Below the pieces are notes generated by a model. That model ran no database searches and was not told where the DNA came from. It saw only the letters and a program-made list of their open reading frames with translations. A stretch of 52,665 nt of DNA from a virus, in the IMG/VR virus record IMGVR_UViG_3300032285_003819, positions 1 to 52,665 of that record, one strand, 5' to 3'. Made by a program: the position numbers and the translations under genes. Positions 6,401 to 52,665 of this stretch are shown here, one piece after another. Each line of letters starts with the position of its first letter. The first letter of the stretch is position 1.

Positions 6401-6956
6401 CATCTACAGAAGTGCAGTATTTATTTTTTATGTAATGAGAGAATGGTCTACTATAATTTCTATATTTTGCATACCCTTGTTGGGTCGCATTCATAGAAGA
6501 AGAAGCGAAAAAATCATTAGTAATTTTTACATTAGTCTTTTCAGGTGGAATTTCCACTGGCAAAGTTAAATTTTCTTTTGCCGCTAAACGATAAGCACCA
6601 AAAGATATATCATACAACTTCGTTTTATATTCATAAATCGCTTTACATTCAGAAACAGAATTTTTAATTTGATTGCCAACTGTAAAATCTATAGAGCTAG
6701 AAGTAAAATTGTACAAATTTGTTTTTTTATCTCTAACTACTACATCATTATAGTATACTCCATAAGATAACGAATTGATGTCATTAAATCCCAAATCTAT
6801 GTAATTAAGAGTTTGACCATCAGAATTCACTAAACCTTCTATCGGACCTTCTGAAATCAAATCCAAACTATCATAAAACGATTCAGTTTCAAAAGCTTGA
6901 TATGCAGAAGATTCTTTTAAAATTTTTTCGAAATTTTTGGAAAATTGTATTTTCAT
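3411..6956 (-). CDS. Tail tip attachment protein, lambda gpJ-like, with lectin-like insert
   Basis: 1181 aa, the central tail-tip (host specificity) protein family of lambda gpJ. The N-terminus has the family's ISEGPIEGLVN motif (about residue 34). The middle has FRGIFYFKNGLLNL and DGLFSYSSGDLNN, then KIIYVEDSQMIKKFGI and a KTEAQRVGKWYL segment (about residues 610-760), all typical of gpJ. Around residues 820-965 a beta-rich insert (GTQVGSD, DVLQITYDGENVKYYQN) resembles concanavalin/SPRY-like lectin domains and may add glycan binding. It closes the tail hub and probably contacts the receptor. It follows the I-like gene after 12 bp, and its terminal Val-stop (GTG TAA) is the GTGTAA element of the next gene. 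Confidence 0.85.
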   Translation of the reverse strand: MKIQFSKNFEKILKESSAYQAFETESFYDSLDLISEGPIEGLVNSDGQTLNYIDLGFNDINSLSYGVYYNDVVVRDKKTNLYNFTSSSIDFTVGNQIKNSVSECKAIYEYKTKLYDISFGAYRLAAKENLTLPVEIPPEKTNVKITNDFFASSSMNATQQGYAKYRNYSRPFSHYIKNKYCTSVDVNIGVDSLFSVDDKGNTLPLGITFIINVSNLTQREDFYFLFNSCFVAKGGTVVLPFNITIEDIDKKSSLFPELVINIYSLRSRLGSDSESLNKTRSFYVDSVTEKIDYPFSYPYSVLCKNKISSKHFNAIPVRSYDCKLLKIQIPDNYDGEIREYDGDWSGSFGRTLKWTNNPAWIFYDLCTNSRYGMARGQLNESDLNKWQLLTLSKYCDELIVTNVSTKYEPDIFYFNNDLKYGDDNFNTVTFSTTQTEAQIQEKYPFGYTLYLYDIKNESAESINVNYKKVILSATVSNGTATLKLCNDFGPRKVLENDLDGNLFKAILNYVQNSTLNVEDKIKSYIAGYFSGSVIGSLPYSSEDQRVSISYTSKPIFDNSLNIKYGYCVAKHPDYKEFLENRFSCNLVLNSENEGLKALTDLSSIFRGIFYFKNGLLNLTTDVLQDPIYIFTNSNVKDGLFSYSSGDLNNIFTVAKVTYSDKTDNFKDKIIYVEDSQMIKKFGIVEKEILGLGITSKTEAQRVGKWYLATGKLESEIVNFITGFEASVLQIGNVVRISDSLKTASVVYGKVTSLDFKNQYIYIDREVPENCLGQVIKIFSIINNKPLELNFSVSEVDNSNLRLKIINSTFTSWNVVSNIIVSDTNRTLTASSTSGSSWNKKAFTNQSHIDNCQISFKFSSIVKYASCGISQISETYAGPSPASYSDVNYSFVCKNTSLLSIYENGTQVGSDISPVSIDDVLQITYDGENVKYYQNKTLLRTVARSKGAPLYGVVALFEADAQINSIYFSRFPEISYGAFSSLRSDANFAVYLNENDSDHDLYRIVNINEASSNEYAVTAMKYSKEKFNIIEKNEYVDNIQNNKKQVVFSTDNEINEAFDDTIISLAIKIAPISYVSSINHVYDYSFYVENEVLNKQYYDNAYEELTIDFNFLFSYLQNIGSTNVFGLMCIIKRNGKTLNFNILRDGATKVNIFLGETPVGDITSKTNLDFYAFDSNYKLINV

Positions 6957-6968
6957 TATTAACTGTTT

Positions 6969-7517
6969 TTATTCTACAATAACGTAATTTTTATAAAGAT
7001 CGTATAATTCTGGCGCTAATCCATTAGACGCATAGCTTATAAATTGTATATTATTGGATACAACTACAGATCCTATCTTGTATCTACCATAACCTATTGG
7101 AACTGGAACGTTTCTTAAAGACACGTTTTCATAATTACTAAACAATCTTGAAACTGTTTTTATATCTACAGGAGATTTTGGTGTTAATAATTTAGTTATT
7201 AACATTTGAATTCCTGTTCCTATAAGCATTAAAGCTATTCCTATAGCTAATTCAGCAGAACCTAATATAAGCGGAACCACTTCAACTTTTGAATCTTTTT
7301 TCAAAATTGGTGAATTAATATACTCTGGAGGCACAACTTTTCCATCAACATATATTATAAAATGACTTAAATATTCATCTAAAACCCCTAATGTTGAAAT
7401 CAATTTATTACTATTAGCTTGTATAGCTTCAAAAATTTCCAAAACAGTTGAAACATTTAATTTCCAATCTGTTTTTATAAAATCTTCAAAAACACCATGT
7501 AATTTAACGCTTACCAT
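6969..7517 (-). CDS. Tail assembly protein, lambda gpI-like
   Basis: 182 aa. It begins MVSVKLHGVFEDF, followed by a ubiquitin-like fold region (about residues 1-80) ending KVEVVPLILGS, then a Gly/Ala/Leu-rich hydrophobic stretch (about residues 87-110). That order is typical of the lambda gpI family. The C-terminal half (NVPVPIGYGRYKIGSVVVSNN) resembles the segment that in related phages leads into the J protein. It sits between the K-like and J-like genes, the canonical K-I-J order. In lambda gpI is needed for tail tip assembly but is not found in the mature particle. A GTGTAA element precedes the start, within the end of the upstream gene. Confidence 0.75.
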   Translation of the reverse strand: MVSVKLHGVFEDFIKTDWKLNVSTVLEIFEAIQANSNKLISTLGVLDEYLSHFIIYVDGKVVPPEYINSPILKKDSKVEVVPLILGSAELAIGIALMLIGTGIQMLITKLLTPKSPVDIKTVSRLFSNYENVSLRNVPVPIGYGRYKIGSVVVSNNIQFISYASNGLAPELYDLYKNYVIVE

Positions 7518-7521
7518 ATAG

Positions 7522-7854
7522 TTATTTACACTTCATTTCTTTAAACTCGTCTTTGTCTAAAATATAAAGCAGCATATCAATATTATGATATTTTTGATAA
7601 AAAATATCTAATTCAGAAAAAAATTCATTTTTTAAATGACTATGAAATAAATATTTTATCACATATTTGCTTTTGACCTCTAAGTAATCTTTAGGATCTA
7701 TTATAAAATAATTTATACTATCAGGATGTTTATTGTTAATTGGTAAAAATTCAATTCCAACTTTTGACTCGACAATAAAACCGCAAACTTCTTTGGCGCT
7801 ATTCAAATGACAGTAATCTTTTATTGTATTAAGTAATTCATTTTTTATTGTCAT
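7522..7854 (-). CDS. JAMM/MPN peptidase, lambda gpK N-domain-like
   Basis: 110 aa from ATG 7854. An upstream in-frame ATG at 7914 would give 130 aa but overlap the L-like gene by 77 nt instead of 17, and the extra residues do not look like the family. The JAMM metal-site residues are visible: E22 before CGF, then H71-S-H73, S80 and D83. The loop between HSH and Ser is six residues, one shorter than the usual seven. Lambda gpK has a JAMM domain followed by an NlpC/P60 domain; only the former is here. The place between L and I fits a role in tail tip assembly or in cutting peptidoglycan during DNA entry. Confidence 0.75.
   Translation of the reverse strand: MTIKNELLNTIKDYCHLNSAKEVCGFIVESKVGIEFLPINNKHPDSINYFIIDPKDYLEVKSKYVIKYLFHSHLKNEFFSELDIFYQKYHNIDMLLYILDKDEFKEMKCK
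7526..7531 (-). promoter_or_regulatory. GTGTAA start-associated element (I-like gene)
   Basis: The hexamer lies 8 nt before ATG 7517, inside the last codons of the JAMM gene (AAG TGT AAA TAA). It is one of nine such elements; function inferred. Confidence 0.5.
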
Positions 7855-8914
7855 ATTGAAAGGTAGCTGGAAAACCACCATAAGGTAATGTTTTATTAGA
7901 TGTAACGTTTCCATCTTTAGACAAATAGTCTTTAAATCTTAGCAAACAACCTCTTAATGTCTTAGAACATTGATCTTGTTTCCATACATTAGTATTTAAG
8001 TTTGGTTGTTTATTTACAACATTATTTTCAAGACAAACATAAAAATTTTTAGGTTTATTTGATAAAGATATATTATAATTATTACTTTCAACCGTAGAAA
8101 CATTAGGCACAAAATCTAAATAAACAAAATCTCCTTGCATATAAATACCAGTAGCTGACCATTTTTCGCGATATTGCATATTTACCAAACCATAAGTATT
8201 ATTAGCTAAATCTGCTTTATAACTTGCGAGAAACGTTTTATCATTTTCGTCCGCAATTGGAATACCTGCATCATAAACATTACCCCATTGACTTTTAGCA
8301 AAGAAAACACTGCTCGGTTGAGAATTTGATTCTAAATATGATATATTTACTATTGGACCACTATAATCTGGAGTGTTTCCATAATTACATCCATAACATC
8401 TATAACCCCAAGAACATGTATCATTAGTAACCTTTCTTGCAGGTATATTTAAATTTTGTAAATCTACTTTTGTAGACAACTCTATTTCAACATGCTCTTT
8501 ATTTTCTAATTTTTTAAGGTTTACAATAAATTTGTCGTAAGCTATATAAGTTTTAAAATTCGAAGTTCCAAATGGATTTATACCATTATCAAAATTTTCT
8601 ATATCTAAATCTTTAGCCAATATTTTTTTTCTATTAAAAGATTTACCAATAAGATCAGAGCGATCTTTTAAAACATGAGATATATAATTATTTATATTAG
8701 CAATTTTTATTGTTGGTTTTGATTGTTTTCCATTAGAAGATGTTTCTATATTAGACAACTCACATGGAATAAAAACATATTGTTGACCCTGAAAAATCAA
8801 ATTATTAGAAAAGTTTTTAGATCCATGAAATCTTAAGTAACCTTCATTGGATTCTAATTGTAGCTCATATAAATCAAGAACTACATAATTATTTAATTTA
8901 AAAAAGGTATTCAT
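7838..8914 (-). CDS. Minor tail protein, lambda gpL-like, probable Fe-S protein
   Basis: 358 aa of the gpL family, which caps the tube at the tail tip. The N-terminal half has the family layout: NYVVLDLYELQL, FQGQQYVFIPCELSNIE, then KTYIAYDKFIVNLKKLENK and a VDLQNLNIPARKV lead-in to a cysteine cluster TCSWGYRCYGC (about residues 161-173). A second pair follows near the end (QCSKTLRGC, about 313-321), then LPYGGFPA. Lambda gpL binds a [4Fe-4S] cluster through conserved cysteines, so these are the likely ligands. A segment between the cysteine clusters is longer than in lambda. The gene starts 2 bp after the preceding stop and overlaps the JAMM gene by 17 nt. Confidence 0.8.
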   Translation of the reverse strand: MNTFFKLNNYVVLDLYELQLESNEGYLRFHGSKNFSNNLIFQGQQYVFIPCELSNIETSSNGKQSKPTIKIANINNYISHVLKDRSDLIGKSFNRKKILAKDLDIENFDNGINPFGTSNFKTYIAYDKFIVNLKKLENKEHVEIELSTKVDLQNLNIPARKVTNDTCSWGYRCYGCNYGNTPDYSGPIVNISYLESNSQPSSVFFAKSQWGNVYDAGIPIADENDKTFLASYKADLANNTYGLVNMQYREKWSATGIYMQGDFVYLDFVPNVSTVESNNYNISLSNKPKNFYVCLENNVVNKQPNLNTNVWKQDQCSKTLRGCLLRFKDYLSKDGNVTSNKTLPYGGFPATFQYDNKK

Positions 8915-29876: not shown

Positions 29877-30395
29877 TTAAACTATATAATTTCCATATCC
29901 ATAAGGATAATAATACCAACCAGAACCTGTAAAAATTGGAGATCCATCTTCACCAGCGACCTGTTTTGGACCAGCCATATAAATATTATAAGCGGCAACC
30001 AACTTCTCCATTTCGGCTTTAGCGTCATTAGCTAAACTACGATAAGTTTTAGCGATTTCATTTTTATTTGTGCGAGTAATCATTGAATCGCCTTCTCTCA
30101 AAGTTATGAAATCAACGCTAGAATCTATTCCACGCAATACTTGACGAGTCTTTTTTGTATAAAACTCATACAAATACATTTGTTTATATATCGCTCTTTC
30201 TTCCTGCTTGAATTCGCCAGTAGGATAAACATAACCATATGAAACGCGATAATTTGTAAAAATCTTAGTATTAAGTAAGCCAATATTATTTTCTATCCAT
30301 CCTGAGATGTAATAAAATTGTGCATAACCGCTATCATAATCAAATTCATTAGCAAAGATTTCATCAGCTATATCATGAACGCTATATTCTACCAT
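29877..30395 (-). CDS. Probable head-tail connector protein
   Basis: 172 aa. Helical N-terminal two thirds (MVEYSVHDIADEIFANEFDY, IYKQMYLYEFYTKKTRQVLRG, KTYRSLANDAKAEMEKLVAAYN), with a Gly/Tyr-rich end (WYYYPYGYGNYIV). Helical proteins of this length next to the capsid gene are typical adaptor (gp6-like) connectors. It is the last gene of the packaging block and ends at the shared terminator. The GTGTAA element lies 9 nt before the start. Confidence 0.5.
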   Translation of the reverse strand: MVEYSVHDIADEIFANEFDYDSGYAQFYYISGWIENNIGLLNTKIFTNYRVSYGYVYPTGEFKQEERAIYKQMYLYEFYTKKTRQVLRGIDSSVDFITLREGDSMITRTNKNEIAKTYRSLANDAKAEMEKLVAAYNIYMAGPKQVAGEDGSPIFTGSGWYYYPYGYGNYIV

Positions 30396-30404
30396 ATATT
30401 ATAC

Positions 30405-30410
30405 TTACAC
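30405..30410 (-). promoter_or_regulatory. GTGTAA start-associated element (connector gene)
   Basis: The hexamer lies 9 nt before ATG 30395, within a 59-bp noncoding gap, so it is not an effect of coding sequence. Confidence 0.6.
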
Positions 30411-30454
30411 TTTTTTATTGATTTTATGAATTAATAAACAATGAATTGATTATT

Positions 30455-30784
30455 TTATAATTGCGTTACATCTTGTTGCACATTCAGTCTGAATTCAAAC
30501 AAAGTTCTATCTAAAATGCCTGTAGAGTAAAAATGTAAATCACCATATAAATTAATTGGAGGAAAATTTCTTGTTACACTTGATGGAATACTAAATTGAA
30601 CTACTCCAGTTCCATTCAATCCTGAAATAACTGTTGGCACAAAAGTATATAACAAATATCCATCTGGATGCGGACGAATTTGTCCAGTGCAAGTTATATT
30701 AGTAAAATCTAAAGTTTCAGAAGTTACAGTTACTGTTTCTGTTGGAAAAGTATCACCTCTTATAACTGATAACTGAGTTGCCAT
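30455..30784 (-). CDS. Small beta-rich virion protein
   Basis: 109 aa of nearly all beta sequence: MATQLSVIRGDTFPTETVTV, GQIRPHPDGYLLYTF, VQFSIPSSVTRNF, and DRTLFEFRLNVQQD. The opening RGDTF pattern is common in small Ig-like phage proteins such as baseplate or decoration modules (compare BppU-like N-domains), but I cannot assign one. It is set in its own small unit, with a terminator behind the upstream gene and a GTGTAA element before its start. A capsid or neck accessory is likely. Confidence 0.45.
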   Translation of the reverse strand: MATQLSVIRGDTFPTETVTVTSETLDFTNITCTGQIRPHPDGYLLYTFVPTVISGLNGTGVVQFSIPSSVTRNFPPINLYGDLHFYSTGILDRTLFEFRLNVQQDVTQL

Positions 30785-30794
30785 TTGTTATCTA

Positions 30795-30800
30795 TTACAC
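30795..30800 (-). promoter_or_regulatory. GTGTAA start-associated element (small virion protein)
   Basis: The hexamer lies 10 nt before ATG 30784 in a noncoding gap just after a terminator. A new transcript would have to start here, which favours a promoter role. Confidence 0.6.
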
Positions 30801-30820
30801 TTTATATCAAAAACAGAGAC

Positions 30821-30850
30821 ATTAAAAAACCCACATTTTATTGTGGGTTT
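30821..30850 (-). terminator. Rho-independent terminator
   Basis: On the minus strand, AAACCCACA pairs with TGTGGGTTT around a six-base loop (ATAAAA), followed by more T. It begins a few bases after the stop of the gene at 30857 and separates it from the next small virion gene. Confidence 0.9.
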
Positions 30851-30856
30851 GTCGTT

Positions 30857-31279
30857 TTAAAGCTCTCCTAATATCTTCAAAGTTTTTTGATGCTTTGGAT
30901 TATTTGGGTCTAAAATTACTGCTGGATTTTGAACTAGCATAGAAATAGTACCCTTGTTAGTAGACTTAAACTCGCGCAACAACTTGTCACGAATATCTTG
31001 TCTTGAACCACTAGCAAAAATACCAATCTTTTCGCACATATGCTGCAAATCAATTAGCGTCATTTCCTTAAGCTTCTCCCTGAACACTTCAAGATTAGAA
31101 GTGCCAAATGGATTGCTCTTTTTAATTCCTAGAATTTCTTCTAGCTTTTTTACCTTTTCAATATCTGGATCAACATTAGTTACCTTTCCATCCGCCAAAG
31201 TTAGATTGTCTAGCTCTGACTTCTTTGGTTGTTCTGGAGCTTGCTTTTTTGAAGTATTCTTTTGCGACTTTTTAGCCAT
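30857..31279 (-). CDS. Small protein with SAP/HeH-like helix-extension-helix
   Basis: 140 aa. A Lys/Gln/Pro-rich N-terminal 20 residues precede a helical domain. About residues 70-110 (EKLKEMTLIDLQHMCEKIGI, then SGSRQDIRDKLLREF) resemble SAP/HeH motifs, in which two helices joined by an extension bind nucleic acid or act as an adaptor. The gene is isolated between two terminators, next to the capsid gene, so it may be a separately expressed head component or DNA-associated factor. No GTGTAA is present; the upstream sequence has TATAGTAT. Confidence 0.55.
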   Translation of the reverse strand: MAKKSQKNTSKKQAPEQPKKSELDNLTLADGKVTNVDPDIEKVKKLEEILGIKKSNPFGTSNLEVFREKLKEMTLIDLQHMCEKIGIFASGSRQDIRDKLLREFKSTNKGTISMLVQNPAVILDPNNPKHQKTLKILGEL

Positions 31280-31312
31280 ATACTATATTAGATAAAATTA
31301 ATAATATTCAAT

Positions 31313-31343
31313 AAAAAAGGCGTTACCCTTTCGGATAACGCCT
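31313..31343 (-). terminator. Rho-independent terminator after capsid gene
   Basis: On the minus strand, a GGCGTTATCC / GGGTAACGCC stem with a GAAA tetraloop and one U-G pair, followed by TTTTTT. It follows the stop of the major capsid gene by about 20 bp. Confidence 0.95.
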
Positions 31344-31366
31344 AATTTATGACGAACTATTTTATA

Positions 31367-32542
31367 TTAGACAATCAAGCCAACTAGAGCGCGGTTGTCG
31401 AGAACCATGCGGCCCTCTTCAACTGAACCATAGTAACCGATCTTACCTTGACGGAGAGTATACTGATCATCGGCAGTGAGTGTGAACTCAGAACCAGAAT
31501 CAGCATCAACAGCGACAGCGCGAACGAGAGCATCGCGTGATCTGTCGAGACCAACTACGATCTGTTCAGTAGCTTGGAATGCTTGAGGATTACCACTGTT
31601 AGCATTAATAGCGTAGTTATCAGCATAAGCAGTAGAACCAGCGACAGTATCGAAGATTGTGGTGAACTTCTTGCCGACACCAAATTCGAGAATTTCCATG
31701 ATAGAAACTCCGAAGAATTCAGTTAGACCAGCTTGGCTGAATACTTGATTACGAATCTCATCGGTAGCGGCAAGAGGAGCGGTTGTTGCTGTATTGTTAG
31801 ATCCAGCAGCAGCAGCTAGAGAACCCTTTGTGTTTACTGGGTTATAAGCCATACCGCGAATTTCTTCGACGATTTCTGGAGAAACGATAAGATCAGTTAG
31901 ACCTCTACGAGCGCCAGAAGGAGTACCACCAACGAATGAAGCGTTGATACGCTTAATCTTGGTGAACAACTTGTTCAAGTCGTTTAGAGTGAAACGGCCA
32001 GCAGCGGCTGAACGGAAAGCATGGTAATTATCAGAAGCAGTGCTGGAATTACCAGTTGAAGCGTTAGCTAGAGCAGTCATCAAGAGGTTAGCAGAAGTTC
32101 TTTCTTGCTTGAGCATGACTTCTTGAGCAATACGGGTGAAAGACTTGCTAACTACGTCTAGACGGCTCTTGGCAGCATACTTCTTGTCGAAAGCGATTGC
32201 GCTATCAAGACGATAGGTGGCAATCTTCAATTCGGAAGAAAGAGGCTGAACGATGTTCTGAGGTAGACCACCAGCAACTGATTGGCTGTATACCTTGATA
32301 TAGTCCTCATCGAAGATGTCATAATAGAGATCTAGAGGAATTGAGGGATTATCTTCAGAATTGAACTGAAGGCTTGTGAACAAGTTAGAGATAGTTGGAG
32401 CATTATTAATAACTTCGGCCAAAACTGGACCAATGAATTCAGCCAAAGCTACTTGAGCTTCGTAGGCTACTTCACGGTTTCTAGAAGCCAATGCTTTGAT
32501 TAGCTCTACTTGTTCATCTGTTCTCTTTAAAACGATTTTCAT
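31367..32542 (-). CDS. Major capsid protein
   Basis: 391 aa. The gene has the expected size and place (after protease/scaffold and decoration genes, before a terminator), and its codon use is distinctly richer in G and C than neighbours, a sign of high expression. The N-terminal region is helical (LIKALASRNREVAYEAQVALAEF), followed by beta/alpha stretches such as IVSPEIVEEIRG near residue 225 and EFFGVSIMEILEFGVGKKF near 275, matching the layout of HK97-fold capsid proteins with a P-domain spine helix. The HK97 fold is assumed from family knowledge. There is no GTGTAA; ATTTTAAA lies 11 nt before the start. Confidence 0.85.
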   Translation of the reverse strand: MKIVLKRTDEQVELIKALASRNREVAYEAQVALAEFIGPVLAEVINNAPTISNLFTSLQFNSEDNPSIPLDLYYDIFDEDYIKVYSQSVAGGLPQNIVQPLSSELKIATYRLDSAIAFDKKYAAKSRLDVVSKSFTRIAQEVMLKQERTSANLLMTALANASTGNSSTASDNYHAFRSAAAGRFTLNDLNKLFTKIKRINASFVGGTPSGARRGLTDLIVSPEIVEEIRGMAYNPVNTKGSLAAAAGSNNTATTAPLAATDEIRNQVFSQAGLTEFFGVSIMEILEFGVGKKFTTIFDTVAGSTAYADNYAINANSGNPQAFQATEQIVVGLDRSRDALVRAVAVDADSGSEFTLTADDQYTLRQGKIGYYGSVEEGRMVLDNRALVGLIV

Positions 32543-41916: not shown

Positions 41917-42666
41917 TTAGTGGATGTTTGTTTTATCTAATTTCTTAAATACGCTTACAATATATTTTAGAATTTCACTACGCATAATGTCTTCTTCATC
42001 GAATTGAAAGCAATAAATTCCGCGATCTTCACTTTCTTTATTATTAAAAAGATCATAAACCCTCATGAAACCAGACTTATTGCCAATGTCTGATTGCATC
42101 GCATCTCCGCAAATAAACATTTTTGTATTTTCGCCAATACGAGTAAGAAGAGTAATTAGTTCTTTACTACTGTAATTCTGCGATTCGTCTGCGATAATAA
42201 TCTTATCATTCCAAGTCGCTCCTCTTAAGAAATTAATTGGTAAAGCTTCTATGAATCCATTTGTTTCTAGATATTTAGATTGAGACATTGGAAGAAGCTC
42301 ATCTAATTTATCATACAACGGCATCATGAATGGGTTAAATTTCTCATCTACTGTTCCAGGTAACGAACCTAACGCTCTTTCACCTGATTCAGCGATAGTT
42401 CGTATATATTTCAACTCTGACTTAGGATTCATATTCAAAATATGAAGCGCACAGTATACAGCTAAAAATGTTTTAGAAGAACCAGCAGGGCCATTAATAA
42501 AAATAATCTTTGTATTCTTATCAAAAGCTATTTGAGCGAAACTTTTTTGTTTGTCTGTTAAATTGAAGTTTCTAATATTTAACTTGACTGATCTAAAATG
42601 ATTGTCGGCGATAATTTCATTTAGATCTTCCTTTTCTTTTTGAATTTTCTTTTTTTTGGTTGACAT
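41917..42666 (-). CDS. PhoH-like ATPase
   Basis: 249 aa, a typical single-domain PhoH-family P-loop ATPase. Walker A is GPAGSSKT (residues 59-66) and Walker B IIIADESQN (about 155-163). The intervening GERALGSLPGTVDEKFNPFM and LTRIGENTKMFICGDAMQSD blocks are characteristic of the family. PhoH proteins are frequent in phages; RNA- or stress-related roles have been proposed but the exact job is not settled. It heads the minus-strand block, with a divergent glycosyltransferase 27 bp away. GTGTAA lies 13 nt before the start. Confidence 0.9.
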   Translation of the reverse strand: MSTKKKKIQKEKEDLNEIIADNHFRSVKLNIRNFNLTDKQKSFAQIAFDKNTKIIFINGPAGSSKTFLAVYCALHILNMNPKSELKYIRTIAESGERALGSLPGTVDEKFNPFMMPLYDKLDELLPMSQSKYLETNGFIEALPINFLRGATWNDKIIIADESQNYSSKELITLLTRIGENTKMFICGDAMQSDIGNKSGFMRVYDLFNNKESEDRGIYCFQFDEEDIMRSEILKYIVSVFKKLDKTNIH

Positions 42667-42693: not shown

Positions 42694-43740
42694 ATGGTAT
42701 TTCACTGTTTAAGTGTTCCTTATTCTCCTACTAAAAAAGATATATCATTATGCGCTTTTGTGCAAAAAGTTTATAAATTTTGCAACGAAATGACTAAACG
42801 CGGCCACATTGTTTACCATTACGGCCATGAAGATTCTATCGTTAATTGCACAGAACATATTAATGTTATTAATAATGATATATTAAAAGAGAGTTATGGC
42901 AACTTAAATGATTGGAAAGAAAAAGGATTTAATCAGAATGTAGACACTAAAGCCGTTAATATATTTAATAATAATTGTATTTTTGAATTAACAAAAAGAA
43001 TAAAATCTAAAAATGAATTTATACTATGCTGGTTTGGATTCGCTCATGAACCATGTGTTAAATATTTTTATAATAAAGCTATAGTTGTGGAGCCTAGTAT
43101 AGGTTATGATAGTATGTTTGCACCAATTAAAATATTTGAAACGCATAGTCAAATGCATAAAATGCATGGCAACTCATGCACAACTATAGGATTAGGATCT
43201 GAATTTGTTGTGCATCCAGGTTTTGATCCTAATGATTTTTTATATAAAAAACAAAAATCAAATATAGCTTTATTTCTCGGTAGAATAACCGAACAAAAAG
43301 GTGCTAAATTAGCTTATGATATTTGCAACCACACTCAACAAGATATTATTTTTGCAGGACCAAACATACTAGGTTTAAAAGATACTAAACATTGCAAATT
43401 TATTGGTTATGTCGATCCAATTAAAAGAATGTATTTACTAAGCGAAGCTAAATTTTTATTTGCACCATCTTTATTTATAGAACCTTGCAATTGGACAGTT
43501 ATTGAATCTCAATTTTCAGGAACACCAACTATAACAACAAATTTCGGAGGATTTACCGAAACTATATTGCAAGGAGAAACTGGATTAAGATGTTCAAGCG
43601 TAAATGATATGATTTACTCTGTTCAAAATATAGATAAATTAATTAACCCTGAAAATTGCTATAAAAACGCAATTTCAAAATTCACATTACAGAAACAATG
43701 CGATTATTATGATTATTTATTTAAATCATTAATGCATTGA
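42694..43740 (+). CDS. Family GT4-like glycosyltransferase
   Basis: 348 aa with a GT-B fold pattern. The C-terminal domain has FLGRITEQKGAKLAYDIC (donor-site start, about residue 190), QQDIIFAGPN, then FIGYVDPIKRMYLLSEAKFLF and EPCNWTVIE, an E-x7-E motif, with GTPTITTNFGGFTE after it. These are hallmarks of GT4 retaining transferases using nucleotide sugars. It is the only plus-strand gene of the locus, and its last 28 nt overlap the 3' end of the TibC-like gene on the other strand, so antisense interference is possible. Donor and acceptor are unknown. Confidence 0.85.
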   Translation: MVFHCLSVPYSPTKKDISLCAFVQKVYKFCNEMTKRGHIVYHYGHEDSIVNCTEHINVINNDILKESYGNLNDWKEKGFNQNVDTKAVNIFNNNCIFELTKRIKSKNEFILCWFGFAHEPCVKYFYNKAIVVEPSIGYDSMFAPIKIFETHSQMHKMHGNSCTTIGLGSEFVVHPGFDPNDFLYKKQKSNIALFLGRITEQKGAKLAYDICNHTQQDIIFAGPNILGLKDTKHCKFIGYVDPIKRMYLLSEAKFLFAPSLFIEPCNWTVIESQFSGTPTITTNFGGFTETILQGETGLRCSSVNDMIYSVQNIDKLINPENCYKNAISKFTLQKQCDYYDYLFKSLMH

Positions 43741-44564
43741 TCTATTTTTTCTCTAACATTTTCAAAAGATATCGTTTTACTACATTCAAAATCTTTATTT
43801 CTTGGACAATAAATCCAATTGCTTAAAATTCCTTTGACATTATCAACAGCACTATCATTAAGACATCCATGACAAACATTTTTATTTATCACTCTATAAC
43901 AATTATTAGCAAATTCGTTATCCTCATTAGTACATCCAGAAATCAATATAACTTTTTTATTTAAAGCCCATGCTAACCATGATAATCCACTGCTTATTCC
44001 AATAAAAAAACTACAATTTTTTATTTGTTGAACTCTATAATCAATAGGATAATCACCTGTTTCGTTAATAGCGTCTTCTGGGATTTTATTGAATTTTTCT
44101 TTAATTCCAAATTCCTGATATTTATCTATGACATAAACGTCATAATTCAATTTTTTTAAATAACGAACAACTTTTTGCCATCCAACAGGATTATTCCAAT
44201 ACTTCATTTGAGAAGTTGAATGAACACTTATGCAAACATATTTCTTTTTTTTATTAAAACTGTGTCTGCTTGTTGTATTAATTAATGGAATAAGTTCTTG
44301 ATAGTCCAAGCCTAATGCGTCACAAGCTATTTTTTGCATAGGCCCTTCTCTAAATATAAAACACACATCTTTGACTATATCGAAAATATCTTCATAATTA
44401 ACATCGACAAAAAAAACATTTGTATTATCTGAATAAAATAAGAAATGCCACTTTGTCTTCACATAAACTTGTCCTCCATATTTTTTTTGATAAGCGTCGG
44501 CATAAATAGAGAAAGCTATATTATCACCTAAGCTATGAGTTATAAAATTAATTAATGTTTTCAT
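43713..44564 (-). CDS. TibC-like O-heptosyltransferase family (stand-alone)
   Basis: 283 aa, similar to bacterial autotransporter O-heptosyltransferases (TibC/Aah family, GT9-like). Visible blocks: NFITHSLGDNIAFSIYADAY at the start, SVHSTSQMKYWNNPVGWQ (about residue 152), FFIGISSGLSWLAWAL (about 205) and ISGCTNEDNEFANNCYRV. The C-terminus has C-x2-C (VCHGC) then WIYCP and FECS, four cysteines matching the iron-finger position in TibC. Family enzymes attach heptose to Ser in autotransporter repeats; the sugar and substrate here are unknown. It overlaps the fusion gene upstream by 17 nt and the plus-strand GT4 gene by 28 nt. Confidence 0.8.
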   Translation of the reverse strand: MKTLINFITHSLGDNIAFSIYADAYQKKYGGQVYVKTKWHFLFYSDNTNVFFVDVNYEDIFDIVKDVCFIFREGPMQKIACDALGLDYQELIPLINTTSRHSFNKKKKYVCISVHSTSQMKYWNNPVGWQKVVRYLKKLNYDVYVIDKYQEFGIKEKFNKIPEDAINETGDYPIDYRVQQIKNCSFFIGISSGLSWLAWALNKKVILISGCTNEDNEFANNCYRVINKNVCHGCLNDSAVDNVKGILSNWIYCPRNKDFECSKTISFENVREKIDQCINDLNK

Positions 44565-46551
44565 TTTTTAAATCGCTTATGCAATGATCTATCTTCTCTT
44601 TCACCATTTCAAATGTTATTTCTCTGCTACATTCAAAATTTTTATTTTCAGGACACCAAGACCAATTACTATATTCAAATTTATATTTTTTGTTATTAAA
44701 ACAGCTGTTACAAACATTCATGTTTTGCACACAGTAAGGAGTAAAAAATTCAAAATTTTGAGCTACTGAATTATTTATACGCACAACTTTTTTACCCAAT
44801 CCCCACGCTAACCAAGAAAGACCAGAGCTTAAACCAATAAAAAATTCACAATTATCAATTATGTTAATTATCTCATCAAATGAGTCATTACCAGCAAAAT
44901 AATCAACATTATCTGGACATTTGTTAATATAAGGAGTTCTACCAAAACTATAATATTTATCAACACAAATTACTTTGTAACCTAAATTTTTCAAATAATC
45001 AACTATTGTTGTCCATCCTTCTGCATTATTCCAATATTTAAATTGACCAGTAGTTTGAACAGCTATGCAAACATATTTCTCACAATCAAATTTTTTTTGT
45101 TGATTAAAGTTTTTAATTTTACAAGGCTCCTCTTCATAAGTTAAACCTAAAATCAAGCAAGCTATTTCTTGTAAATTTTTACTTATCCAATCCATATTAT
45201 CGAAACAACCTATTTTAAAATGAATATTTTCATTGCACATCTGTTTCTGAGTGTAATCAAAGAAATTTAATTCAGGATAAGTTTGCTGTAATATATTTTT
45301 ATATGGAGTAAAATAATTAACTTTTATATTTTTTTCTCTAGCATATCTAGCAACAATCGGAGTCCATGCAATAAAATCGCCAAGACTATTTGATTCATTG
45401 GTTATATTAATCGTTTTTTTTTCTGACTTGTTTTTTAAATGATCGATTGCTATTTTTGCAGCTTTTTCCCATGTGAAATTTTTTCTTATAAAATCGCTAT
45501 CTTTTAATGCTTTTTGTTTATAAAATTCATAGCTATTATAAACTTCAAGCATCTTCTTTTTTAAATCATTATAATCTGGATTATAATATCCAAACATAGT
45601 ATCATTTTTATCTAAGATTTCTCCATGAACTTTTACGGCTATTCCTAATCCTTTTGCAAATTCTAATTGACCAGAACAATTTGAATATATTGATGGTATT
45701 CCACAAGCTAAAGATTCAATAAGAGGAAGATTCCAACCTTCTGATCTAGCGCATGATAAAAAAACACTACTACTTTTTATCATTTTTATCAATTCGCATC
45801 TCTCTTGAAAATCAATTATTTTTATATTTTCGCAAGTAATATTCATTTCTTCAAGTCTTTGTTTTGTAGATTTATGACTGTCATCTGGAAAATTATTAGA
45901 ACACGAAAGTAATAATTGGACATTACTATTGTTTCCAAATAATTCAACAAAAGCTTGCACTATTTCTTTTGTGCTTTTTCTTCTTTCCCATTTTCCTAGT
46001 ACTAAAAAAGTAAATTTATCATTATTTTTCAAATCTTCTGGGAAAAGTTCATTTGGATCTATTCCTTCTGGTACGATTCTTATTTTTTCACGCGAGAATC
46101 CTTGCCTTATTAAACAATCATATTGCCAATGAGTAGGAACCCAAACTTGATCAGCAAAATTTAATTTTTCAAAAAAAGAATTGGGGTATGTGGTTTTTTC
46201 CCAAACATTATAAAATATTTTTTTACCAGAATAATTATCATTATAATATTGATGAAAACAATCAACCAAAACTATATCAAATTCATGATCAAAATTATTA
46301 AGACCATTATAAATAGGCACATCGAACTGCCCATTTTCAAAAGAGCATGTTTGTAAAGCTAATATTTTTTTATCCAATTTATCTACAGAATCCCCATGAA
46401 CCTCTTTTGAATTAACCCCTTTCCAGTTTGAATCTACAGAATAATTTCTAATTTTGACATCCGATTCTTTAGATAAAGCTCTAAAAAAATTTCTAGAATG
46501 AATTGCGTATCCAGTCCTACCAATATAACAACAATGACCTAAAATTTTCAT
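44548..46551 (-). CDS. GT4 - TibC-like glycosyltransferase fusion
   Basis: 667 aa, two enzymes in one chain. Residues 1-370 are a GT4 transferase (FLVLGKWERRKSTKEIVQAF about 185; ARSEGWNLPLIESLACGIPS about 270). Residues 380-660 are a second TibC-like domain: NSLGDFIAWTPIVARYA, AVQTTGQFKYWNNAEGW, FFIGLSSGLSWLAWGLGKKV, and the four-cysteine end (CNSC, WSWCP, FECS). It is clearly related to the neighbouring stand-alone enzyme, so one arose by duplication. Fusion suggests two consecutive sugar transfers to the same acceptor. It overlaps its neighbours by 4 and 17 nt. Confidence 0.8.
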   Translation of the reverse strand: MKILGHCCYIGRTGYAIHSRNFFRALSKESDVKIRNYSVDSNWKGVNSKEVHGDSVDKLDKKILALQTCSFENGQFDVPIYNGLNNFDHEFDIVLVDCFHQYYNDNYSGKKIFYNVWEKTTYPNSFFEKLNFADQVWVPTHWQYDCLIRQGFSREKIRIVPEGIDPNELFPEDLKNNDKFTFLVLGKWERRKSTKEIVQAFVELFGNNSNVQLLLSCSNNFPDDSHKSTKQRLEEMNITCENIKIIDFQERCELIKMIKSSSVFLSCARSEGWNLPLIESLACGIPSIYSNCSGQLEFAKGLGIAVKVHGEILDKNDTMFGYYNPDYNDLKKKMLEVYNSYEFYKQKALKDSDFIRKNFTWEKAAKIAIDHLKNKSEKKTINITNESNSLGDFIAWTPIVARYAREKNIKVNYFTPYKNILQQTYPELNFFDYTQKQMCNENIHFKIGCFDNMDWISKNLQEIACLILGLTYEEEPCKIKNFNQQKKFDCEKYVCIAVQTTGQFKYWNNAEGWTTIVDYLKNLGYKVICVDKYYSFGRTPYINKCPDNVDYFAGNDSFDEIINIIDNCEFFIGLSSGLSWLAWGLGKKVVRINNSVAQNFEFFTPYCVQNMNVCNSCFNNKKYKFEYSNWSWCPENKNFECSREITFEMVKEKIDHCISDLKNENIN

Positions 46552-48722
46552 ATAATAATATAATTATGTCTTATATATCTATAAAATCCATACGAGTAAC
46601 TTTTTACTTGGTTCTGTATTTTATTAAAATTTTCTTCTAAAATTTTATCTAATTCATGTTTATTATCAAAATAATTTTCTTCTAAATAATATAAAATAAT
46701 TTTAGCTTTATTATTGTTTGATTTTATTTTATCAACCGTGTCTTTTATAAAATTTGAATTCAAAAAATAATCGCAAATTATCAAATAAAAATCAGAATCG
46801 TAATTACAATCAAAATCTATTTTACAATCAGAATATAAATTTCTGAATTTATTTTTTTGATCCAAACTTAAATTTTGCGAAATAATGGATATAGATTTAT
46901 TATGTAAAATATTTATTCCTAAAATCAACAAACCCGAAGTTTCTTTATAAATATCATTAAAAATATAATAAGGATCATAACAATTATTTTTTAATTTATT
47001 ATATGCTAAATCAAAATTCGCATTGAAATTGGGTTTTGCTGGAGAATGAGAATCAGAATCTTGTCTTAATTTCCAATTGTATAAGCATCTAGGTATATGC
47101 ATCCATTTACCCAAACTATTAAAATACATAACTCTATATGAATCTTCAGAAACAGCGTTAAAATCATTTATTTCGAAATTAATTTCTTTGATATTTTTAA
47201 AACATCTTAAATGGCTAAAAGCATAATAAGAAATATTATTCAAATAATTTATATTTGGATGAAATGATGGTAAATTATCTAAAAGATTTTTGTTATTTTT
47301 TAGCAAAGATATAGAATGAAAATTATTATTTTCTGTTTTTATAAACTCACTGCTTATAAACACAGCTTCTGGATAAGACGATGCGAATTTATTATAAATA
47401 TTTAAAAAGCTTGGATCAAATTCGTCATCACAATCTATCAAAACTATATAGTCAAATGAAGAATCAAAAAATTTATTAGGTTGCCAGAACATTTCTTTTT
47501 TACGAGACTGTTCTACATATTTTACATTTTTAAAATATTTTATTTTTTCAAGAAGCATTGATTTAGTATTATCAGAACTAAAATCATCAGTTATTATCCA
47601 CTCAAAATTATCGTAATCAATTTTAGATATTTGATCAAATATAAAATCTACAAATTTTTCTGCATTATAAAAAGATGTATAAAGACCGAATTTTTGCCTT
47701 TTTAAAGGATAAATATTATTCATTTTAACACTAGAAAGATCGTATTTTGGATACACTATAGATTTATTTATAGATGTAATATCGATCTCTTTAAATTTTT
47801 CTAAAACATCATTATAACTAGGATGACATTTAAAAGTTTTATATTTTTCTAAACAATCTGGTAAATAAGGAGTAGCATTTATAGTTCCCCATTCTTTTAC
47901 TGAATATTTTACATCACTTGTGCAAAAAATTTTGCAATCTCCTCCTATAAATTTATATTTATAATCTCTTGATCTTTTTCTTATTGGATTGACATATCTA
48001 TAATCTGATGCAGTTCCTACTTGTATTATCCATGCATCAGTCGTACCAGCCACATGAAGCGGACCAGAATCCATAGTAATTATACAAATAGAATTATTTA
48101 TCAAATGCCACATATCACTGATAGAAGAACCATCATTAGAGTAATTGATTATATTATTACCTTTTGGCACAAAACATTTTTTTTCAATAATTCCTTCAGA
48201 AGTTGGTTCTAAATAATCTTTTCCAATTACTACTATATTATAACCTAATTCACTTATTTTATCGGCAAGATTCTGCCAATTTTCTTTGCTCCAAGTTCTA
48301 TTCTTCCAATTAGAGGTAGTATGTATACAAACATAGTTATTTAGGCTTTTAATATCATATTTACAATGTTCATCTGCAAAAAAATCTAAAGTTAATTCTT
48401 CATCTAATAAATCAAAACCTAAATCAAAAGCGCAACTTCTTCTTCTATCACAAGTATGTATTTTTCTAAGAGATTTAATTCTAGAATCTTTGAAAAAACT
48501 TTCCATTTCAAAACAAGATAAAACTTCATATTTAGATTCGTCCACTTCTTCTTCTAAAAAAAAATTAGAATCTACATAAGGATTATTTTTAAAAAGACTG
48601 GGGTATTTAGATTTTACACTTATTTTTCTTCCATAAGCTTTTGATAATTTTCTTAAAGCTGGAGTAGCGCAAAGAGTATCGCCCATACCATAACCATGTA
48701 TCTTTAATAACACTTCTTTCAT
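46548..48722 (-). CDS. GT9 - GT2 glycosyltransferase fusion
   Basis: 724 aa. Residues 1-330 are a GT9 (heptosyltransferase-type) domain: IHGYGMGDTLCATPALRKL, CIHTTSNWKNRTWSKENW and MDSGPLHVAGTTDAW (about residue 217). About 355-560 form a GT2 domain: FGLYTSFYNAEKFVDFIF, WIITDDFSSDNT and the metal-binding LIDCDDEFDP (about 427-436). The last 150 residues, with the LLILGINILHNKSISII segment, look like a separate alpha/beta domain I cannot name. A three-part enzyme of this type is probably soluble, since no membrane segment is seen. It follows the DUF6165 gene with a 4-nt overlap. Confidence 0.8.
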   Translation of the reverse strand: MKEVLLKIHGYGMGDTLCATPALRKLSKAYGRKISVKSKYPSLFKNNPYVDSNFFLEEEVDESKYEVLSCFEMESFFKDSRIKSLRKIHTCDRRRSCAFDLGFDLLDEELTLDFFADEHCKYDIKSLNNYVCIHTTSNWKNRTWSKENWQNLADKISELGYNIVVIGKDYLEPTSEGIIEKKCFVPKGNNIINYSNDGSSISDMWHLINNSICIITMDSGPLHVAGTTDAWIIQVGTASDYRYVNPIRKRSRDYKYKFIGGDCKIFCTSDVKYSVKEWGTINATPYLPDCLEKYKTFKCHPSYNDVLEKFKEIDITSINKSIVYPKYDLSSVKMNNIYPLKRQKFGLYTSFYNAEKFVDFIFDQISKIDYDNFEWIITDDFSSDNTKSMLLEKIKYFKNVKYVEQSRKKEMFWQPNKFFDSSFDYIVLIDCDDEFDPSFLNIYNKFASSYPEAVFISSEFIKTENNNFHSISLLKNNKNLLDNLPSFHPNINYLNNISYYAFSHLRCFKNIKEINFEINDFNAVSEDSYRVMYFNSLGKWMHIPRCLYNWKLRQDSDSHSPAKPNFNANFDLAYNKLKNNCYDPYYIFNDIYKETSGLLILGINILHNKSISIISQNLSLDQKNKFRNLYSDCKIDFDCNYDSDFYLIICDYFLNSNFIKDTVDKIKSNNNKAKIILYYLEENYFDNKHELDKILEENFNKIQNQVKSYSYGFYRYIRHNYIII

Positions 48723-49078
48723 GTAAAATGTTTAAATTCTAGAACGCTAGAATTGTAATTTTTATTTATTTCTGATTTTATCTTGAATCGCGCATCGTTA
48801 TTTTTATAGACGCTTCTGGCTAACTCTACGAATTCTGTATCGAATTCATTATTCTTTTCTTTTATTCTTATATCATCTTCGATATACCATAATTTTTGAT
48901 TAACATTTTGCAAATCAGTAAAATACCTCTGTTCAATATTAAAAGGTTTAATAATTTCATTTATTAAATTGATTTCTTCATCAATTTTTATAGAAGCATT
49001 TGGTATATTTTGTTTTTTTATTTTTAATATTGTTATCTTGTCAACTGCTTCGCCGATAGAAACTGGAATTTGTATCAT
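48719..49078 (-). CDS. DUF6165 family protein
   Basis: 119 aa from ATG 49078, chosen over an in-frame ATG at 49111 because it follows the FkbM stop by 7 bp and begins MIQIPVSIGEAVDKITILKI, the family's usual N-terminus. Other conserved blocks are LWYIEDDIRIKEKNNEFDTEF and LARSVYKNNDARFKIKSEIN. The function of DUF6165 is unknown; its members often neighbour glycan-related genes, and the setting here agrees. It overlaps the GT9-GT2 gene by 4 nt. Confidence 0.75.
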   Translation of the reverse strand: MIQIPVSIGEAVDKITILKIKKQNIPNASIKIDEEINLINEIIKPFNIEQRYFTDLQNVNQKLWYIEDDIRIKEKNNEFDTEFVELARSVYKNNDARFKIKSEINKNYNSSVLEFKHFT

Positions 49079-49085
49079 ATATATT

Positions 49086-50060
49086 TTATGCAAGAGAACG
49101 ATTTTTTGCAAAAATAATTCCCAACTTTTCTGATTTTACGATTACCCTATATTCAAAACCATTTTTCTCAAAGAAAGAAGTTAAATTTTGAAAATGACCG
49201 TGATATTCAACAGCTATTTTTCTGATATTATTTTTTATATAGTCAGCATTTTGTTCTGTGAAAATATAATGCTCTCCTCCTTCACAATCGCACTTAAAAT
49301 AGTCAATTTTTTGAATATTATTTTTGTTTATAAAATCTAAAAATGAGTAGCCTTGAATTTTTTGCTGAGGTCTATTTCTATCATACCAATTAATATTTTC
49401 ATTATCTGCTATAAAATTAGCTGGATCTGTATCAGATAACAATACTAAATATTTTTCTTCTGTTTTATTGGATATAGCTACATTATTCAACACAACTTGT
49501 GGAAAATGAGCGAAATAATCTTCGAGAATAGAAAAAGATTTCAATGAAGGTTCGCAGCAATAAATTTTTGAACATTTATTGTTTATTGCTTTTGTTATAA
49601 AAGCTCCAATATTTGAACCAATATCTAAAACAACATCATTCTTTTCTAAGGAAAAGAAATCAGAATCATATTCTTTAAAACAAAAAACTTCCATAAAACT
49701 ACTCATTTCTATTCCATCATTAATATATTTTAAAATTTGTGGAGCTTCTGTCAACGCATCTGACATTTTAAAATTAGAAGAGTAAAAAGATTCTGAAAAT
49801 ATTAACTCCTCATCATCAAAAATTTCTAATCTCAATGAATTAGATATTTTTTCGCCAATTGAATGTCCTATAAAATAAACATAATCTTTTATCAATATCA
49901 TATCATCATAATGATAAATAAAATTAAAAAAACCATCTTTCAGTTTTACTGATAAAATTTTATTTTCATATTTTGAATCATTTAATTTGAAATGAATAAC
50001 TGCTTTTGATGGATTCAAATTAAACTCTATTCCAGTTATTGTAAACAGTTCTTTTTTCAT
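49086..50060 (-). CDS. FkbM-family methyltransferase
   Basis: 324 aa. Residues about 1-120 are a beta-rich leader unlike usual FkbM proteins. The catalytic domain then shows the S-adenosylmethionine motif VVLDIGSNIGAF (about residue 143), YCCEPSLKSFSIL, and YFKCDCEGGEHYI (about 247), typical of the FkbM family that O-methylates sugars or natural products. It starts at the A of the epimerase stop (TAATG), so it is coupled. In the locus it probably methylates the sugar assembled by the transferases, capping or masking the chain. Confidence 0.85.
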   Translation of the reverse strand: MKKELFTITGIEFNLNPSKAVIHFKLNDSKYENKILSVKLKDGFFNFIYHYDDMILIKDYVYFIGHSIGEKISNSLRLEIFDDEELIFSESFYSSNFKMSDALTEAPQILKYINDGIEMSSFMEVFCFKEYDSDFFSLEKNDVVLDIGSNIGAFITKAINNKCSKIYCCEPSLKSFSILEDYFAHFPQVVLNNVAISNKTEEKYLVLLSDTDPANFIADNENINWYDRNRPQQKIQGYSFLDFINKNNIQKIDYFKCDCEGGEHYIFTEQNADYIKNNIRKIAVEYHGHFQNLTSFFEKNGFEYRVIVKSEKLGIIFAKNRSLA

Positions 50061-50869
50061 TATGTGATGTTATTTAATTTATTAATATTCGCACATGAGT
50101 GTCGCACTTCTTGTTTAGCTTCCTTATATATTATATCGCTACTGAACTGTTTTGCTAGCGTATTTATCGAAATAGAATTGCCGGTGCCAATATTGAAAAT
50201 TTCGTTTTTGATTTGTTTATTTAATAGGTTAGAGATATGATTACATACATCGTTGACGCTTATAAAGTCTCTTGTTTGTTCGCCATCTCCATATATAGTC
50301 AATGGTTCTTTCTTCTGAAAAGCAAGATTGAATGCCGTAATCACTCCAGCATATTGCGGATTCTGTCCTTGACCAAATACATTAAAAAATCTAAATATTA
50401 AATAATCGATGCCCCACAATTGGCAATACATTTGTATATACTTCTCGGATACTAATTTATCTAATCCGTATGGGCTATTAGGCTCTGTAGAATCTGTTTC
50501 GCTAACTGTTCCTTCTTTATTACCATATACTGCTGCACTAGATGAGAATAAAAATTGTTTGATGCCGTGAAGTTTGGCGGCTGACAATATCTTTATAGTC
50601 AAGAATGTATTATTGCCGAAACTATTTACTGGATCTTCAAATGATCGCGGCACACTTACCATTGCTGCGAGATGAATTATGCAATCTACTGCCTTAAATA
50701 TGTTATCGTTAACGTCGATATCTAATATGTCTATGATTTTTTGCTTGTCAGTAGGAAGTGCGGTGCTAATAACTTTATCCAAGTTATAAACGTCATGTCC
50801 ATCGCTAGACAATTTATTTATTAGATGCGTACCGATAAACCCGCTGCCGCCAGTAATCAATATTCTCAT
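50060..50869 (-). CDS. NAD-dependent sugar epimerase/dehydratase (short C-terminus)
   Basis: 269 aa, extended SDR family. The NAD(P)-binding motif TGGSGFIG is at residues 6-13. The catalytic Ser lies in LFSSSAAVYG (about 107-116), with Y134 and K138 in YGLDK. RFFNVFGQGQNPQYAGVI and GDGEQTRDFISVNDV are typical of UDP-sugar 4-epimerases and related dehydratases. Usual length is about 310; this one stops after ANINKLNNIT, about 40 residues short at the C-terminus, where substrate contacts and the final helices lie. It may still be active or be a remnant. It overlaps both neighbours (ATGA, TAATG). Confidence 0.85.
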   Translation of the reverse strand: MRILITGGSGFIGTHLINKLSSDGHDVYNLDKVISTALPTDKQKIIDILDIDVNDNIFKAVDCIIHLAAMVSVPRSFEDPVNSFGNNTFLTIKILSAAKLHGIKQFLFSSSAAVYGNKEGTVSETDSTEPNSPYGLDKLVSEKYIQMYCQLWGIDYLIFRFFNVFGQGQNPQYAGVITAFNLAFQKKEPLTIYGDGEQTRDFISVNDVCNHISNLLNKQIKNEIFNIGTGNSISINTLAKQFSSDIIYKEAKQEVRHSCANINKLNNIT

Positions 50870-51482: not shown

Positions 51483-51547
51483 CCTCCCCCTGCCTCAGCT
51501 CCAAAAAGTCAAGAGAAAAAAATTTCAAAAAAACGGTAGGGGTCGGA

Positions 51548-51568
51548 GGGTTGGCACGGTTCCTGCTG
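51548..51568 (+). repeat. Left arm of a 21-bp inverted repeat
   Basis: GGGTTGGCACGGTTC-C-TGCTG is the reverse complement of 52608-52628 with one mismatch (20 of 21). The two arms enclose the whole plus-strand small-gene cluster. Confidence 0.85.
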
Positions 51569-51627
51569 GCCGCAGACCCCCCTCCCCCAGGCCATCGGAA
51601 AAAAGTGAAAAAAGTTATCTGAAAGTG

Positions 51628-51656
51628 TTGACGGCCACCGAGTTTTCCCCCATAGT
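51628..51656 (+). promoter_or_regulatory. Sigma70-like promoter giving a leaderless start
   Basis: TTGACG (51628-51633), 17-bp spacer, CATAGT (51651-51656). The ATG at 51663 lies 7 nt after the end of the -10 box, so transcription would begin at or next to the start codon. Confidence 0.55.
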
Positions 51657-51662
51657 GTGTCC

Positions 51663-51902
51663 ATGCAAAACGAGATTGTGATTCTGAAGGTCAGCAAGTT
51701 CAAGACGGTCGCGCTGGTTGGTGTGACGTACCGCAAGGCGGACGGCACGACTGGCGTGTCACACGGTAAGACAGAGGCGGAAGCAATTGCAAACATCAGC
51801 GTGGTGATTCCTGCGAAAACGCTTGACTTCGCCCCGCTTGCAAAGCGCAGCACTAGCGGAAGCTACTTCCGCAACAACAACGGGATGATGGTTGAAGTCT
51901 GA
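51663..51902 (+). CDS. Small hypothetical protein, higher G+C
   Basis: 79 aa from ATG 51663; a GTG two codons earlier is less likely because the promoter's -10 box ends there. The sequence (IVILKVSKFKTVALVGVTYR, HGKTEAEAIANISVVIPAK) has two beta strands then a helix, with a basic polar end. No family recognised. Codons are much richer in G and C than in the phage structural genes, which suggests transfer or a different host-expression regime. It is followed 54 bp later by another gene of the same type. Confidence 0.6.
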   Translation: MQNEIVILKVSKFKTVALVGVTYRKADGTTGVSHGKTEAEAIANISVVIPAKTLDFAPLAKRSTSGSYFRNNNGMMVEV

Positions 51903-52647: not shown

Positions 52648-52665
52648 CCCCCCCCCCCCCCCCCC
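52648..52665 (+). other. Terminal run of 18 C
   Basis: The window ends in an uninterrupted C homopolymer. This may be where assembly stopped, a library artefact such as homopolymer tailing, or a true low-complexity tract. No biological role should be assumed. Confidence 0.8.

Follow-up and report, generated by a model that had tools for sequence, protein, structure and literature searches.

TibC-like glycosyltransferases of an aquatic phage and their association with serine- and threonine-rich collagen-like fibres

The bacterial autotransporter heptosyltransferases (BAHT) TibC and Aah (AAH) of family TIGR04414 (structures 4rap and 4rb4) use ADP-heptose to add heptose to Ser of repetitive serine-rich proteins. 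In TibC, Asp110 acts as the catalytic base, Thr226, Lys230, Arg286 and Trp305 form the donor site, in which Arg286 touches the adenine and so favors ADP-sugars, four cysteines hold a ferric ion, and P300S is a specificity switch (PMC4358343). Glycosylation of collagen-like proteins is known from other settings: in Clostridioides difficile, BclA3 is O-glycosylated on Thr/Ser of its Gly-X-Y triplets by SgtA, the enzyme of the adjoining gene (PMC7157674), and in mimivirus the collagen lysyl hydroxylase/glucosyltransferase L230 is a virus enzyme that glycosylates viral collagen (PMC9614988). For mycobacteriophages, papers citing Freeman et al. 2023 relate that phage glycosyltransferases were proposed to act on the phage's own virion proteins, while the authors of the pelagimyophage work interpreted recognition-region glycosyltransferases as modifiers of host lipopolysaccharide (LPS) (PMC7029224). 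Here, we analyzed the IMG/VR virus record IMGVR_UViG_3300032285_003819, a linear record of 52,665 bases from an aquatic phage (hereafter the window, meaning this stretch at its full length), which encodes two TibC-like domains, TibCa and TibCb, along with a collagen-like fibre. We favor, with moderate confidence, the interpretation that this locus is a phage protein-O-glycosylation module acting on the phage's own Ser/Thr collagen-like fibre.

The components of this locus are all of known kinds, yet the phage branch of TibC-like enzymes appears to be new within the literature searched, as does the link between this branch and collagen fibres free of proline; a full-text query of that literature returned no paper joining bacteriophage, collagen-like, O-glycosylation and triple helix. 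As for SgtA and BclA3, a glycosyltransferase gene stands beside a collagen-like gene in many phage relatives and in the cultured Microcystis phage Mel-JY01; in the window, the truncated fibre is ~40 kb from the enzymes on a linear record. SgtA, however, is of the GT-A type and transfers GlcNAc to Gly-Pro-Thr, whereas the phage enzymes are of the GT-B TibC type and face proline-free triplets. Mimivirus L230 differs from the window enzymes in belonging to an unrelated family, in using a hydroxylysine acceptor and in coming from a eukaryotic virus. The mycobacteriophage system is similar in the proposed action on the phage's own virion proteins and different in its targets, which in the citing papers are C-termini of the capsid and of the tail tube. 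The matching enzymes of Streptomyces and Rhodococcus phages resemble one window protein in its GT4 half only. With respect to TibC and AAH themselves, the phage partner is a collagen-like fibre rather than a strand-loop-strand autotransporter, and a candidate substrate of the autotransporter type was rejected, as a simple motif detected no strand-loop-strand arrays across 112 viral loci, compared to 19 of 80 bacterial loci with the same motif.

The assignment of both domains to the TibC family is strong. TibCa (43713–44564, minus strand) is a stand-alone catalytic domain of 283 amino acids (aa) scoring 202.7 bits against TIGR04414, and TibCb (227.1 bits at residues 354–655) occupies residues ~372–655 of a 667-aa protein (44548–46551, minus strand) in which residues ~1–370 form a GT4 glycosyltransferase (PF00534, 4.5e-14). 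Both scores exceed the curated equivalog cut-off of 200 bits, and the E values (8.5e-60 and 3.2e-67) leave no concern over matches by chance. The closest solved relative by sequence is TibC in both cases (4rap and 4rb4 for TibCa, 4rap for TibCb), while LPS core heptosyltransferase equivalogs of the GT9 family (WaaC/WaaF/WaaQ) score no higher than 33.6 bits, with cut-offs of 134–467. AlphaFold models, built on an alignment restricted to sequences of the window and of viral_contigs, had mean pLDDT (predicted local distance difference test) values of 81.7 for TibCa and 86.9 for TibCb, and the fold predicted for both has TibC as its best structural match (template modeling scores to query of ~0.82 and ~0.87, compared to 0.46–0.65 for LPS heptosyltransferases). 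An earlier note made from the sequence alone had named ordinary GT9 lipid-core transferases lacking the iron finger as one outcome that would overturn its idea of TibC-like enzymes decorating the fibre; the equivalog scores and the predicted fold rule out such ordinary transferases, and the four cysteines are present in both domains. Specifically, TibC Cys339/342/358/370 align with C231, C234, C253 and C261 of TibCa (43782–43874, minus strand) and with C614, C617, C633 and C641 of TibCb (44629–44712, minus strand), delineating iron-finger-like stretches of putative metal binding. Hence the two TibC-like domains with a four-cysteine end proposed in the earlier note are real and lie exactly where it placed them, with the amendment that the second makes up the C-terminal half of a protein whose other half is GT4, and that neither carries the TibC N-terminal barrel. 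D110, T226, K230 and W305 (TibC numbering) are conserved in the alignment of both domains, and position 300 is Ser in both, as in AAH. Across 102 dereplicated phage domains, which we surveyed alongside 76 bacterial ones, D110, W305 and the four cysteines are invariant (102/102). Phage and bacterial sequences separate in a FastTree tree with three label changes, although long branches make the deep placement unsure.

The fibre (1–3402, minus strand) is cut by the window end and matches tail-fibre PHROGs. Its open reading frame (ORF) matches the Collagen family (PF01391, 5.5e-32) and includes 89 triplets in long runs, with Thr/Ser at 95% of X and Ser at 91% of Y positions, in agreement with the Gly-Thr-Ser/Gly-Ser-Ser composition first noted for it; GTS/GSS arrays lie at 1–162, 610–951 and 1333–1584. 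A similar composition was obtained for 5,807 triplets from TIGR04414-bearing contigs (X Thr/Ser 87%, Y Ser 78%), where Pro is outside the eight commonest residues at both X and Y.

To evaluate the co-occurrence of enzyme and fibre, we compared 50 viral contigs chosen solely by a DNA pattern for Gly-Thr/Ser-Ser triplet arrays (the GTSG set) with 49 viral contigs chosen by arbitrary sequence patterns (3 kept from an earlier, rarer pattern giving 5) and 49 chosen for Gly-Pro collagen arrays. TIGR04414 was encoded by 25 of the 50 GTSG contigs (24 over the cut-off) and by none of the contigs in either control (0/49 and 0/49; Fisher p = 1e-9, or 9e-15 with pooled controls). Restricting the comparison to contigs of at least 60 kb gave 20/25 for the GTSG set and 0/29 for the controls. 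In the reverse test, a triplet array was detected in 26 of 50 TIGR04414-chosen contigs compared to 1 of 49. The two genes are also close: for 18 of the 25 positives, an array lay inside a stretch of ≤20 kb around the enzyme gene (i.e., within ~10 kb), compared to an expectation of 7–10 for an array cluster of ≤10 kb (P 1e-4 or lower) and of 12 for one of 20 kb (P 0.005). In a 735-kb uncultured phage the TibC-like gene and the array are ~6 kb apart, and in a marine group the array begins 0.6–2.5 kb downstream of the enzyme gene on the same strand. These counts do not reflect clones, as the 27 TibC-like domains compared were all distinct at 90% identity and formed 18 clusters at 60%. Overall, this provides strong evidence for a specific co-occurrence and closeness of TibC-like enzymes and Ser/Thr collagen fibres, bearing out the suggestion that the two belong together. 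Contigs of the window's own lineage (L589–L597), like the window fibre at base 1, tend to end inside Gly-Thr-Ser arrays. Such repeat arrays break metagenomic assembly, so that fibres are undercounted and the enzyme-fibre co-occurrence probably is as well.

If the module acts as proposed, the TibC-like enzymes would place the first sugar on Ser, or possibly on Thr, of the Gly-Thr-Ser/Gly-Ser-Ser collagen-like chains that the phage itself encodes. This would happen inside the infected cell, either ahead of assembly or in its course, and the GT4, GT9 and GT2 transferases, the FkbM methyltransferase and the sugar epimerase of the cluster would extend and cap it. The purpose could be to stiffen or protect a proline-free collagen rod, or to vary its surface. 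A collagen helix without hydroxyproline needs another source of stabilization, which O-glycans could supply, as in glycosylated collagens; it is because the triplets are proline-free that we propose this stabilizing role. As to the sugar itself, the heptose initially put forward is unsupported: genes similar to GmhA and HldE are rare, with a gmhA-like gene in 1 of 25 phages, below the cut-off, and an hldE-like nucleotidyltransferase above the cut-off in 1 of 25; Arg286 is lost from TibCb and from 44 of the 102 phage domains; and the barrel is absent from the window enzymes. Since phages rarely carry ADP-heptose genes, heptose would have to be supplied by the host. Synthesis of ADP-heptose by the phage was rejected on the same rarity and because the epimerase of the window is no clear heptose epimerase. 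Heptose is thus possible and not favored, and a different sugar is no less likely.

Several observations weigh against a module acting on the fibre. The window proteins depart from TibC in lacking the N-terminal barrel (TibC residues 1–97), the deletion of which inactivates TibC, and TibCb has Ile at the position of Arg286, the loss of which abolishes or largely diminishes TibC activity (PMC4358343). TibCa retains this Arg. The segment of the beta-hairpin thumb of TibC, a dodecamer, aligns without gaps in both domains, with the hydrophobic tip F265/V266 replaced by E/K and P/Y. R286 is kept in only 58 of 102 phage domains versus 75 of 76 bacterial ones, which suggests that part of the phage branch may have relaxed or changed its donor-nucleotide use. 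The barrel itself is found in 54 of 102 phage domains, including those of sister phages, and in Ser/Thr-collagen contigs a barrel-like segment stands upstream in nearly all TibC-like domains, usually behind a GT4 domain. Since sister phages and the Ser/Thr-collagen set carry barrel-bearing enzymes, the enzyme pair of the window, one member stand-alone and the other fused to GT4, is a reduced form, which might act alone or as a hetero-oligomer, if it is active. On the side of the association, 5 of the 25 GTSG contigs of ≥60 kb are without TIGR04414, and 24 of 50 TIGR04414 contigs are without the GTSG pattern, most of these being fragments. The controls were unmatched for host, size, habitat or family, and GTSG contigs were longer on average. 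GT2 enzymes were enriched in GTSG contigs too (18/50 versus 3/49), so that part of the association may reflect a general glycan repertoire of large aquatic phages, although TIGR04414 is the sharper marker. Finally, other virion proteins are possible targets, e.g., a sheath-like protein in a T4-like lineage.

Relatives of the window phage include full-length, barrel-bearing versions of the enzyme. TibCa is conserved at the same place in six sister phages (L001–L006, 75–85% identity), and four of them (L001, L003, L005 and L006) carry at that place both a barrel-less TibCa-like gene and a barrel-bearing 395-aa enzyme, two of which were scored (327.9 and 324.2 bits to TIGR04414). The cassette flanks are conserved, with endonuclease VII at one end and GT4, PhoH and terminase at the opposite end. 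Between them lie either GT4-GT4-FkbM-TibC fusions (1493 and 1736 aa), or FkbM-GT2 proteins as long as 1367 aa, or the set of the window, and this variable cassette looks like an exchange of glycan-building modules. The opposite-strand GT4 gene (42694–43740, plus strand; PF00534, 1.1e-13; phrog_3408), convergent with TibCa and beside PhoH (41917–42666), is conserved at 67–84% identity across the sister phages, all of which have it, in contrast to the varying genes past TibCa. Ten sister contigs show terminase, a capsid-like gene and then a GTSG ORF, and end in or just past that ORF. In contigs L589–L598 the GTSG ORF follows a capsid-like gene (the counterpart of window 31367–32542, in region 29877–32542) and two small genes. 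The window differs from these sister phages in that its GTSG fibre stands behind a J-like tail gene, and the collagen may thus form head fibres in certain phages and tail fibres in others. The non-repeat domain of the fibre is also present in HTVC010P and DSL-LC01, for which no GTS arrays in the stretches read and no TibC-like match were found. In Mel-JY01 (L011, PP395634.1), a GT4-methyltransferase-TibC gene (4747–8427; 317 bits) is flanked by two GTSG arrays. The deposited annotation of this genome describes the TibC-containing gene as an FkbM methyltransferase only, and covers its 1016-aa GTSG fibre ORF (L011:2–3049) mostly with opposite-strand hypothetical coding sequences instead of a fibre.

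Outside its sugar cluster, which spans 42.7–51.2 kb and has endonuclease VII in its minus-strand set, the window encodes PhoH, a large terminase, a tape measure protein of 2530 aa and a lambda-J-like tail module. Beyond the enzymes above, the cluster includes, all on the minus strand, a 724-aa fusion of a GT9-like and a GT2 domain (46548–48722; PF01075, 3.8e-10; PF00535, 2.1e-14), a DUF6165 protein (48719–49111; PF19662, 3.7e-9), an FkbM-type methyltransferase (49086–50060; PF05050, 6e-10; TIGR01444, 54.7 bits with a cut-off of 37.7), and a nucleotide-sugar epimerase/dehydratase-like SDR (50060–50869; PF01370, 3.6e-56) scoring 147.8 bits for GalE and 120 bits for heptose epimerase, both far under the cut-offs. 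The GT9-GT2 protein scores below the TIGR04414 cut-off, and its GT9-like domain also has four C-terminal cysteines within residues ~260–320 (DCKIFC...PDCLEKYKTFKC), which may form a third metal-finger module, more remote than the other two and not part of TIGR04414. The DUF6165 gene often adjoins the TibC-like gene in relatives: it was found in 10 of 50 GTSG contigs, all 10 TIGR04414-positive, three of which (G020, G029 and G042) have 6–9 bases between it and the enzyme gene, and it stands between enzyme and array in one contig of the marine group (G155), suggesting that DUF6165 may be a partner subunit or carrier. At the right end of the record, an unbroken run of C (52648–52665) is probably a sequencing or library artefact, and a chimera is unlikely there, as the ORF at 51509–51853 has relatives in L002 and L006.

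Polysaccharide loci are likewise built of GT4, GT9, GT2, FkbM and epimerase genes, and the cluster may instead alter a host surface glycan (LPS O-chain, capsule or host glycoproteins), e.g., to block superinfection, with the link to the fibre arising from a shared host-recognition cassette. This is the usual published interpretation of glycosyltransferases in phage host-recognition regions (PMC7029224), and both the GT2 enrichment in the same contigs and a cassette middle that differs among sister phages, as in surface-glycan loci, are consistent with it. However, the closest characterized relatives act on a repetitive Ser-rich protein, the association is missing in Pro-type collagen phages (0/49), and no membrane or export gene was recognized in the cluster, so that we consider modification of the host surface unlikely. 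Another virion protein, such as the capsid, tail sheath or tail tube, might also be the one glycosylated, with the collagen fibre a bystander. Glycosylation of both the capsid and the tail tube is reported for mycobacteriophages (Freeman 2023, cited in PMC12619734), and in a T4-like lineage (L049, L056, L079, L080 and L082) the TibC-like gene is just upstream of a gene with a Ser/Thr-rich insertion, whose product is a putative tail sheath judging from its C-terminal sequence. The Ser/Thr-rich ORF beside the enzyme in L049 and L080 was accordingly rejected as a fibre candidate. Given that the sheath case is one lineage of 75–98% identical members, and given the specific co-occurrence with Ser/Thr collagen, a bystander fibre seems improbable. 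Glycosylation of phage DNA bases as protection from nucleases, a hypermodification proposed for freshwater phages (PMC10202952), is very improbable in view of the predicted TibC fold with its iron finger, and no association with DNA modification was seen, with the limit that no search was aimed at it; a PADLOC search matched no defence proteins.

Returning to a module acting on the fibre, a broader and more tentative scenario, which taken as a whole is rather doubtful, can be outlined: many large aquatic phages may have a self-contained O-glycosylation system in which TibC-derived enzymes with an altered donor would coat nearly every triplet of proline-free Gly-Thr/Ser-Ser collagen rods, the sugars would take over the stabilizing role that hydroxyproline has in animal collagen, and through exchangeable downstream cassettes the glycan on the fibre would differ from phage to phage. 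Aquatic phages commonly carry glycosyltransferases as well as Ser/Thr collagen-like fibres, and the two are mostly treated separately, with the enzymes regarded as modifiers of the host surface or of DNA. If the pairing described here is specific, it would provide a function for a TibC branch present in more than 100 viral contigs, would turn virion glycosylation from a trait known in mycobacteriophages into one that is widespread among aquatic phages, and would offer a testable explanation for the folding of proline-free collagen rods. Because Mel-JY01 is cultured and its enzyme and fibre genes adjoin, the question is directly testable.

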